A DNA stretch of 23,745 nucleotides from a virus: positions 1 to 23,745 of IMG/VR virus record IMGVR_UViG_3300042542_000320. One strand, 5' to 3'. Within the stretch, counting starts at the first letter, position 1, and every line of letters starts with the position of its first letter. This document shows positions 971 through 5,275 of this stretch, piece after piece. The notes under the pieces are model-generated. The model did no database searches. It was given only the letters and a program-made list of their open reading frames with translations, and had not been told where the DNA came from. The position numbers and the translations under genes are program-made.

Positions 971-984
971 ACAGCTTATGCTGT
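971..984. promoter_or_regulatory. Candidate operator palindrome
   Basis: ACAGC-TTAT-GCTGT is a perfect 5-bp inverted repeat with a 4-nt centre. It covers the predicted start point of the leftward promoter, where a bound repressor would block transcription. Related half-sites overlap the two -10 boxes: ATTAAGC at 993-999 and its inverse GCTTAAT at 1055-1061. The likely binder is the HTH protein encoded at 1060-1299. Binding is inference. Confidence 0.4.
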
Positions 985-990
985 ACCACA

Positions 991-1019
991 ATATTAAGCC
1001 AAATTAAAAAAAAGTGCAA
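991..1019 (-). promoter_or_regulatory. Leftward early promoter (sigma70-like)
   Basis: On the complement strand, TTGCAC (1014-1019) and TAATAT (991-996) are separated by exactly 17 nt, a near-consensus sigma70 promoter. It would start transcription near 984, at the edge of the palindrome 971-984, and drive the leftward operon beginning at 952. Confidence 0.65.
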
Positions 1020-1024
1020 ACTAT

Positions 1025-1053
1025 TTGAATCTGCGTTGTTTATTTGGTAAGAT
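1025..1053 (+). promoter_or_regulatory. Rightward promoter of the repressor gene
   Basis: TTGAAT (1025-1030) and TAAGAT (1048-1053) are separated by 17 nt. Only 6 nt separate the -10 box from the ATG at 1060, so transcription should begin at or within a base or two of the start codon. Its -35 box lies 5 nt from the -35 box of the leftward promoter, giving a compact back-to-back pair. Confidence 0.6.
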
Positions 1054-1059
1054 AGCTTA

Positions 1060-1299
1060 ATGCGAAAGAAAAAAGTATTTACCGATAGCCAAATTATCGA
1101 GTTACTGGGTGGGCCTACCAAAATAGCCAAAATCTGCAAAATTAGCGTACCTGCGGTGTCCATGTGGAAAAACTCAGGTATTCCAGCCGATAAAATGGTC
1201 TATTTAGGGGCGTTATTGGAACAAGAAAGCAAGGGATTAGTTAGCCGTAAGGACTTATTTCCTGAAAGTTACCATTTGATATGGCCTGAGTTGCGTTGA
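1060..1299 (+). CDS. Cro/YdaS-type HTH transcriptional regulator
   Basis: A 79-aa DNA-binding protein. Residues about 16-45 (GGPTKIAKICKISVPAVSMW) form a helix-turn-helix of the Cro/YdaS type, with 'AVSMWKNSGIP' as the recognition-helix region. The C-terminal 'SRKDLFPESYHLIWPELR' matches the closing 'RxDL....W..IWPEL' of phage P22 Cro/YdaS relatives. It is divergent from the leftward early operon, so it most likely represses that promoter, its own, or both. There is no Shine-Dalgarno sequence, and the -10 box ends 6 nt before ATG, pointing to a leaderless mRNA as known for lambda cI from PRM. No cI-like partner is visible in this window. Confidence 0.85.
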   Translation: MRKKKVFTDSQIIELLGGPTKIAKICKISVPAVSMWKNSGIPADKMVYLGALLEQESKGLVSRKDLFPESYHLIWPELR

Positions 1300-1318: not shown

Positions 1319-1319
1319 A

Positions 1320-1530
1320 ATGGGGCAGAGTGAAGTCTGTTTAGTATTACCAGCTAAGACCCTATAGGGTTGCTTTGAGCGTTTTGGAAAGGCTGGCTGG
1401 TCTTTTCTAAAGCGACTTCACCTTAGAGCAACCTTATGGGGTTTTCTCTTTCTGTCTAGCCCGCACACAGGCGTGATGATGCGGTAAAGGCCGTAAATAC
1501 TTCAGAAGCGAAACGGCAGCAATGCCCCAT
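1320..1530 (+). ncRNA. Candidate structured non-coding RNA with long wobble-rich hairpin
   Basis: The core is a hairpin read on the plus strand: 1356-1379 pairs with 1422-1445 over 24 consecutive positions, of which five are G-U and none is mismatched. The stem continues as 1380-1392 with 1402-1414 (13 bp, three G-U) to a 9-nt loop, CUGGCUGGU. The only interruption is the 7-nt bulge ACUUCAC (1415-1421), which is exactly complementary to GUGAAGU at 1330-1336, a possible pseudoknot. Two further small hairpins follow: CCGCA/UGCGG (1461-1465, 1480-1484) and GCCGU/ACGGC (1490-1494, 1513-1517). AUGGGGCA (1320-1327) can pair with UGCCCCAU (1523-1530) to close the whole element. No protein frame explains the region. 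It matches no class I know: tmRNA and RNase P signatures and a tRNA-like end are absent. The boundaries are inference; it may instead be a structured 3' UTR of the repressor mRNA. Confidence 0.55.
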
Positions 1531-1891: not shown

Positions 1892-2083
1892 ATGAAAACA
1901 TTTAAATGGGTTGTAGAGTTTGAAGTAACAGAAACTTGGGTAGAAGATGGTTTTGAGATTAATGAAGATAGGGCACAAGATATGCTTGCTAACGCTTTAC
2001 CTTATGCTTATGGGCATGAACTTAAAGCTACAGTAATTAAAGCACCTGACCCAAAATTGATTAAAAAAGCACAAGCTGCATAA
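1892..2083 (+). CDS. Hypothetical 63-aa early protein
   Basis: The protein begins MKTFKWVVEFEVTETWVEDG and ends in a lysine/alanine-rich tail. An alternating strand pattern at the N terminus followed by a helix (DRAQDMLANALPYAY) suggests a small alpha/beta fold. The AGGGGG Shine-Dalgarno is well placed before ATG 1892. A terminator follows immediately, so it may be a highly expressed single-gene unit. I do not recognise the family. Confidence 0.75.
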   Translation: MKTFKWVVEFEVTETWVEDGFEINEDRAQDMLANALPYAYGHELKATVIKAPDPKLIKKAQAA

Positions 2084-2712: not shown

Positions 2713-3087
2713 GTGGATTTTGAAAAGTTTTGGATGAATTGGCCCAAAAAGGTCGCAAAGAAAAAAGCTGAAATTGCTTGGAAACGATTGACTGACCTTG
2801 AAAAGCGTGAAGCCTTAGAAGCCTTGCCAAAACACCTTAGACATTGGCAACTTAAACGCACCGAAATAGACTATATTCCGTACCCTGCATCGTGGATTAA
2901 CGGGCTTAGATTTCAGGATGTTTTAGACATGACCCCCGCCAAAGAAAAGGTGGATAGGTCTTGGATGTTTAGCCAACAAGGTATTGAGAACAAAGCTCGT
3001 GAACTAGGAATACTGGGTAACGGGTACGATAGTTACGATACTTTAAAGAAAAAATGTATGATGCGAATGGGGATGGAAATAGATTGA
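2713..3087 (+). CDS. Phage replication-protein-like domain
   Basis: A 124-aa protein with GTG start and AGGGGG ribosome-binding site (2704-2709). The opening 'FEKFWMNWPKKVAKKKAEIAW' followed by 'IPYPASWINGLRFQD' matches the C-terminal domain of many phage replisome organisers (O/DnaA-like replication initiators), whose typical form is 'FxxFWxxYPKKVxKxxAxxAW ... IPxPxxWLNxxRWxD'. The N-terminal DNA-binding domain usual for such initiators is absent, so this is a stand-alone domain. It may recruit or load the host helicase. The ending overlaps the methyltransferase start by TTGA. Confidence 0.7.
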   Translation: MDFEKFWMNWPKKVAKKKAEIAWKRLTDLEKREALEALPKHLRHWQLKRTEIDYIPYPASWINGLRFQDVLDMTPAKEKVDRSWMFSQQGIENKARELGILGNGYDSYDTLKKKCMMRMGMEID

Positions 3088-4679: not shown

Positions 4680-4956
4680 AAAAGAAAGAAAACAAAATGA
4701 CGATATTGCAAGACTTGGTTGCGTCTTATGCTACTACATGGGCTTCAATGACACCCCCGCAGAGCTTCACCATGTCAGACGATTCGGGGGTAAACGGGCA
4801 AATGCACCAATACTCCCCTTATGTACCGAGCATCACCGAGGTGCTACAGGTGTGCATGGACTCGGAGCTAAGGCTTTTGAGAGATACCACGAAGTTGAGT
4901 TCGATACCTTACTAGATATAGTTAAAGTTCGAGTGGGTCAAAACCAAGCTCGGTAG
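4672..4956 (+). CDS. Ref-like HNH nuclease
   Basis: A 94-aa protein with Cys17-x2-Cys20 ('GCVLCYYMG'), 'AELHHVRRFGGKRANAPILP' with His33-His34, then 'LCTEHHRG' with Cys51 and His54-His55, and 'GVHG'. This layout matches the RecA-dependent nuclease Ref of phage P1, an HNH-type enzyme that cuts at RecA-made D-loops. The product is shorter than P1 Ref and has only the nuclease domain. ATG 4672 overlaps the previous stop, and an earlier ATG at 4627 would lie inside the nuclease gene. Its 3' end overlaps the convergent SprT-like gene by 35 nt. RecA dependence is not shown by the sequence. Confidence 0.7.
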   Translation: MNKKERKQNDDIARLGCVLCYYMGFNDTPAELHHVRRFGGKRANAPILPLCTEHHRGATGVHGLGAKAFERYHEVEFDTLLDIVKVRVGQNQAR

Positions 4957-5275
4957 CGACCATTTTTGCCCTATTTCTAAAGGTCTTATCGTGCTTAGTC
5001 CACGCTTGGGTGGAAGTATTCCAACGGCTTGCATGAATCATCTCGTGAGCCATAGTCCTAATTACTGTGTCTAAATGCCCACACCTAGCGTCAGATATAG
5101 TTATGGTATGGGCGTGTTTTTCCCCATCGTCATATAAATAAGTACCCATAGCGTCAAAGTCGCTATCAACGATAAACTTACATTCTTCAGGTAGGGGCAA
5201 ATCCCAAGACGCAAACGGCTCGCAGCAATACAACATGGCATAGATGTTTTCAATAATCTTAGGCGTTAATTTCAT
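4922..5275 (-). CDS. SprT-like zinc metalloprotease
   Basis: A 117-aa protein with the zinc-binding helix HEMIH (residues 77-81) and a downstream His95 in 'WTKHDKTFRNRA', matching the HExxH...H layout of SprT/SPRTN-like proteases. It is reduced to the catalytic core and lacks an obvious DNA-binding zinc finger. In cells this family removes DNA-protein crosslinks; a phage version may clear protein from DNA or process a host target. The gene shares ATGA (5272-5275) with the upstream phosphoesterase, so the two are cotranscribed leftward. Confidence 0.75.
   Translation of the reverse strand: MKLTPKIIENIYAMLYCCEPFASWDLPLPEECKFIVDSDFDAMGTYLYDDGEKHAHTITISDARCGHLDTVIRTMAHEMIHASRWNTSTQAWTKHDKTFRNRAKMVATELGFDPLEL

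Follow-up and report, generated by a model that had tools for sequence, protein, structure and literature searches.

The locus lies in a 23.7-kb virus fragment (IMG/VR record IMGVR_UViG_3300042542_000320, positions 1 to 23,745; hereafter the window, meaning the whole stretch analyzed). The fragment is of the tailed-phage type, with large terminase and portal genes detected. The best-covered matches of the large terminase, the closest in our search, were HTVC010P-type Pelagibacter phages at ~43%–45% identity, and the closest named relatives of the regulator were the uncultured Manatee Spring phages MW202674 (56%) and MW202520 (41%). Judged from where relatives were sampled, the group is apparently freshwater. 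A scan of genome contigs for hosts found three loci in metagenome bins, which belong to different groups, and a fourth in Xenorhabdus; we therefore assign no host.

The regulator gene (1060–1299, plus strand) encodes 79 aa. Leftward from it, on the minus strand, are a 69-aa gene (743–952) that matches no PHROG or Pfam family and a 207-aa gene (123–746) that matches PHROG 862, of unknown function. A 63-aa gene at 1892–2083 (plus strand), also without a PHROG or Pfam match, heads the rightward genes, which include a replication-initiation-like protein (2713–3087). Elsewhere in the window, a SprT-like metalloprotease-type protein scored above the Pfam cutoff (4922–5275, minus strand). Just 3′ of the regulator is a candidate conserved structured RNA (1319–1449, plus strand), a long hairpin with a U-rich tail and an invariant TATACT upstream. 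In this candidate, 96.8% of cells were paired, with a covariation score of 0.259 versus 0.120 in shuffled data, and its covariance model had sense-strand matches in 24 of 44 sources searched, four of them training sequences. It had no Rfam match, and the Rfam search returned nothing at the gathering threshold.

The regulator matched PHROG 35, a repressor family (E = 4e-12). In Pfam, it scored 29.5 bits against PF15943 (curated cutoff 30) and 26.3 against PF14549 (cutoff 30.2), and because both scores fall narrowly under the curated cutoffs, we call it Cro-like rather than a family member. Profile comparison matched it to YdaS of CP-933P (8co2, E = 1e-5) and P22 Cro (1rzs, E = 4.5e-5). The structure model (pLDDT 89.7) has six helices in an all-alpha helix-turn-helix fold with a recognition helix; its top Foldseek matches were YdaS 8co2 and Xfaso 1 Cro, with P22 Cro lower, although these E-values were weak and none was 0.001 or less. 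The proposal, made in a sequence-only reading of this DNA, that a Cro/YdaS-like protein would control two divergent promoters here is supported.

We compared the region across relatives. Several hundred loci came from six viral-contig scans and from named phage records. The full regulator upstream region was present in 328 of them, which contained 147 different 110-nt sequences and grouped into 58 clusters at 85%. Sixteen clusters were set aside before counting, either as HNH-interrupted (L019 and L196) or as prophage-type or outgroup (L063, L068, L325–L328, L332, L333, L335, L336, and L338–L341). The remaining 42 clusters, comprising 17 regulator groups at 80% identity, rest on 291 loci, with some contigs repeated from different scans. 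For L015 and L078, we shifted the start codon 12 nt upstream by hand, and the leftward operator of L182 appears misassigned. Loci from one of the six scans, added later, entered only the analyses of L105-type looser sites and class-2 sites, not the clustering.

Divergent promoters and the start of the regulator mRNA

The predicted leftward promoter has a −35 box TTGCAC (1019–1014) and a −10 box TAATAT (996–991), with a predicted +1 at 984; the Shine-Dalgarno sequence (SD) of the leftward gene, GGAG, is at 959–962 on the same strand. The rightward promoter has a −35 box TTGAAT (1025–1030) and an extended −10, TGG plus TAAGAT (1045–1053, with TAAGAT at 1048–1053), on the plus strand. The coordinates first proposed for this pair held up, as did the two 17-nt spacers and the 5 nt between the −35 boxes, but neither promoter is good by consensus. 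Their scores of 8/12 (rightward) and 7/12 (leftward) are under the 9/12 scan threshold, and shuffles of the interval reach scores equal to the real one. The pair is credible because it is conserved among relatives: for example, of the 37 clusters with an assigned leftward operator, 36 have a leftward −35 that starts with TTG and a spacer of exactly 17 nt. Judged by this shared geometry, the predicted divergent promoters at 971–1061 are real and conserved.

A gap of 6 nt separates the rightward −10 from the regulator ATG at 1060, and no SD precedes that codon, just as the earlier reading had it. Across the 42 clusters, the distance from a −10-like hexamer to the ATG was 6 nt in 20, 7 nt in 15, 9 nt in three, 5 nt in two, and 8 nt in one, and one cluster had no such hexamer. 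This places the box 5–9 nt from the ATG in 41 clusters and 6–7 nt from it in 35 (shuffle null 5.3%). The −10 was TG-extended in 27 of the 42, and none had an SD 4-mer. Given this spacing together with the lack of an SD, the suggestion that the regulator mRNA is leaderless, or nearly so, is well supported by the comparison, and translation would begin at or close to the 5′ end. We considered whether transcription might instead start further upstream, giving a leader that is translated without an SD. Starts without an SD are frequent here, with only nine of 28 listed window genes qualifying under a strict SD rule, so a missing SD is by itself weak evidence. The near-constant spacing over 17 protein groups, L203 excepted, nonetheless makes an upstream start unlikely.

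The exceptions were few. The leader of L203 is longer and includes a G-rich stretch, and L068, among the clusters set aside, has an SD. In the two clusters dropped as HNH-interrupted (13 and three rows), an HNH gene lies between the promoter and the regulator, so the regulator would not be leaderless there. We note that the HNH endonuclease-like gene is inserted exactly between the promoter/operator and the regulator ATG in L019, L023, and L024, and in L196 of the sister group. In the first three of these loci, the ATG of the inserted gene holds the 6-nt position after TAAGAT, that is, the leaderless slot. The regulator ATG overlaps the HNH stop codon (ATGA) in these interrupted loci, so translational coupling would be possible. 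Separately, the prophage-type relatives L326, L327, L335, and L336 have several CTTAG-N4-CTAAG-like sites and a TAAGAT −10 that ends 6–7 nt before the regulator ATG, which suggests that leaderless regulator starts also occur beyond this clade.

Predicted operator sites and the absence of detected CI genes

An inverted pair, ATTAAGC/GCTTAAT, had been proposed to overlap both −10 boxes. The first half (993–999) does overlap the leftward −10, but the second (1055–1061) starts 2 nt past the rightward −10 and overlaps the ATG. Nor do the two form one inverted pair: they are halves of two separate TTAAG-N4-CTTAA dyads. The predicted operator O_L, TTAAGCCAAATTAA (994–1007), has one mismatch and overlaps the leftward −10, and the predicted O_R, GTAAGATAGCTTAA (1047–1060), also with one mismatch, covers the rightward −10 and the A of the ATG. 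When we scanned all 23.7 kb, the only other site with at most one mismatch was a perfect one before the rightward early genes, O3, TTAAGTAAACTTAA (1854–1867, also predicted). Of shuffled sequences, 42% contain a 7-nt inverted pair. The window by itself could not carry the finding.

The comparison establishes the motif, its positions, and its variable center. In an unbiased scan of all 5-mer dyads across the 42 clusters, TTAAG-N4-CTTAA ranked first, occurring exactly in 15 clusters and with at most one mismatch in 38. At that tolerance, O_L was found in 37 of the 42 clusters (shuffle mean 0.52 clusters) and O_R in 30 (shuffle mean 0.09), with the caveat that the start codon partly dictates the right half of O_R, as the −10 does its left half. 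The arms are kept and the N4 center varies. Position tables for the 36 clusters with both operators showed nearly fixed left-arm half-site bases and a mostly variable O_L center; the O_R center is largely ATA(G/C) because the −10 requires those bases. O_L was the better match in 22 of these clusters, equal in 14, and worse in none. We make no claim for helical phasing of the O_L–O_R spacing, for which p was ~0.02–0.05 on distinct values, uncorrected for relatedness.

In a scan of whole records, 19 of 24 phage records had one to three exact sites, and the reversed pattern was absent from all 24. (A 25th scanned record, a 3-Mb bacterial bin, had seven sites versus three for the reversed pattern.) Of the five phage records that lack an exact site, one is QAVH-type, another is L183, and three belong to the SQW type, in which sites read TTAAG-N4-CTAAA or TTTAG-N4-CTTAA. 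A downstream site within 2.2 kb was found in 124 of 135 distinct main-helix regions, two of 14 QAVH-type regions, and none of 20 outgroup regions, with recognition-helix type assigned by us from the region list. In relatives, O3 is ~0.5–1.8 kb downstream of the regulator start. In the sister group, O3 takes up the 17-nt spacer between the TTGACA and TAAACT boxes of a promoter, and the transcript predicted from this promoter begins with a stem-loop; stem-loops occurred in 21 of 44 O3 contexts (7.9% under the null). In the window's own subgroup, we found neither this stem-loop nor a convincing −35 at the O3 promoter. Most relatives that show a fourth site have it ~1.8–2.7 kb left of the regulator, which in the window would be past its end. 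Because the window carries a third predicted operator ~0.8 kb from the other two, and relatives have a fourth on the left, the circuit is not the self-contained one that had been supposed. A sequence-constant dyad, AGGG-N5-CCCT or near, was also seen upstream of O3 in the window (~1826–1840) and of O3 and O4 in relatives, possibly the site of a second protein or a terminator.

Operator sequence appears to track the recognition helix, with PAVSMW accompanying TTAAG-N4-CTTAA and QAVHRW accompanying TAAAC-N4-GTTTA or a looser TAAA-N6-TTTA. In the L105 type, both O_L and O_R carry the looser form. This covariation is only suggestive, because exact class-2 sites occurred in only two of nine QAVH-type records (and in none of 16 others).

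We considered a true lysis-lysogeny switch, in which the regulator would be the prophage repressor (a CI analogue) of a temperate phage and another gene its Cro. Related proteins do face a LexA/CI gene in Acinetobacter phage Ab1656-2, and PHROG 35 is named "transcriptional repressor." However, the gene opposite the regulator is not recognizable as a divergent CI-type repressor by PHROG or Pfam, and clade records yielded no tyrosine integrase (PF00589, 24 distinct records), serine recombinase (PF00239, 14 records), HTH_3 (14 records), or Peptidase_S24 (18 records), counts that apply to these families only and include fragments. The control phage Ab1656-2 was positive for integrase, HTH_3, and S24, although not for serine recombinase. 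A lambda-type switch is therefore not indicated and seems improbable here, and we favor reading the locus as a Cro-only circuit for early shut-off. These negative searches likewise argue for, short of proof, a lytic lifestyle, several of the records being fragments.

The 5′ end of the leftward mRNA

At 971–984, what had been called a perfect palindrome is ACAGC-TTAT-GCTGT, two 5-bp arms around a non-palindromic center. By itself it is unremarkable: 56% of shuffles contain two 5-bp arms separated by no more than 4 nt. Read on the minus strand, it would give the leftward mRNA a 5′-terminal stem-loop, ACAGC-AUAA-GCUGU, with covarying stems in relatives. A stem of five Watson-Crick pairs, at least two of them G-C, began at position +1, +2, or +3 of the leftward RNA in 30 of the 42 clusters, as against 0.75% of shuffles; for this count, we placed the leftward −10 boxes of L105, L078, L086, and L066 manually. 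When a single wobble was tolerated in either sense, the number rose to 39 clusters, with 14 distinct 5′ arms and a loop that measured 4, 5, or 6 nt.

These data bear on the earlier view that the regulator binds the palindrome as an operator. The dyad is short and sits at the leftward start point, where a repressor would block, but a protein-bound dyad should keep its sequence and spacing. At 971–984, only the pairing is kept: arm sequences differ even among phages that share a recognition helix, loop length varies, and on the leftward RNA strand eight clusters have one G·U and one cluster has one A·C. We consider an operator here very unlikely; the element looks like an RNA stem-loop at the mRNA 5′ end. 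Hairpins at the 5′ end are described as impeding RppH conversion and stabilizing bla mRNA (PMC3997798). As in such mRNAs, the stem here begins at the predicted +1, and it may stabilize the leftward transcript.

Known systems and a proposed early shut-off circuit

The closest fold match, YdaS of CP-933P (a cryptic prophage of E. coli O157:H7), shares with the regulator a C-terminal stretch ending IWPE. PF15943 is named "Bacterial toxin YdaS," yet a toxin of a toxin-antitoxin pair is scarcely plausible here, as CP-933P YdaS/YdaT are argued to be Cro/CII analogues rather than such a pair (PMC8630535), and no YdaT/CII-like gene was found beside the regulator, the adjoining gene at 1892–2083 matching no PHROG or Pfam family. 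In the account given there, CP-933P YdaS acts first on the opposing promoter and on its own at higher dose, an order that the filling proposed below would mirror; its opposing gene is the CI analogue paaR2, itself the leaderless one, and the published repeat consensus is GTTTAGTAA.

With P22, the locus shares a Cro-type protein and an identical operator core. P22 c2 operator DNA of 2R1J is given as including TTAAG-ATAT-CTTAA (PMC9976882), and in our phages a dyad of this P22 type lies at the promoters predicted to be controlled, where the regulator would bind. Unlike in P22, we found no c2/CI-like gene, the regulator mRNA is apparently leaderless, and two operators lie between divergent promoters with distant single copies elsewhere. 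PY54 cro and cI mRNAs are reported as leaderless by RACE (PMC4488713), but PY54 is temperate with a CI, and its Cro is described as having a single binding site and as probably leaving its own promoter unbound. The cI mRNA that lambda makes from PRM is also cited as leaderless (PMC8630535); there, cI is the lysogenic repressor and three operators serve a CI-Cro antagonism, unlike the circuit here. Each element thus has a precedent, namely P22-type operators, a leaderless cro in PY54, the Cro-like YdaS, and 5′ stem-loops. Their combination in phages without a detected CI appears to be new, and we found no description of this circuit in the literature searched.

We consider it likely that the 1060–1299 protein is a repressor of the P22-Cro/YdaS type that brings about a CI-free, auto-limited early shut-off through repeated TTAAG-N4-CTTAA sites. 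Upon infection, both divergent promoters would fire, the leftward one giving an early mRNA with a 5′ stem-loop and an SD and the rightward one a leaderless regulator mRNA. As the regulator accumulates, its dimers would bind three sites: O3, which precedes the rightward early genes; O_L, at the leftward −10; and O_R, at the regulator's own −10 and start point. O3 and O_L match the motif at least as well as O_R does. Occupation of the operators would turn early transcription off and then cap the regulator's own synthesis.

More tentatively, about four promoters may form a regulon that is run by Cro without a CI and timed by mRNA 5′ ends. One repeated operator, its sequence seeming to vary with the recognition helix, would shut all the early promoters. 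Early mRNAs with a stem-loop and an SD would be long-lived, and the leaderless, unprotected regulator mRNA would make the shut-off signal short-lived and self-limiting.

For a group of uncultured phages, these results provide a concrete regulon with its sites predicted, and the 42 natural promoter variants allow operator, start point, and recognition helix to be compared. Three questions become open to direct test: the reason that some regulators of phages are leaderless, the possible use of Cro-type proteins by phages that have no CI, and the possible role of 5′-terminal stem-loops in setting the lifetime of early mRNAs.
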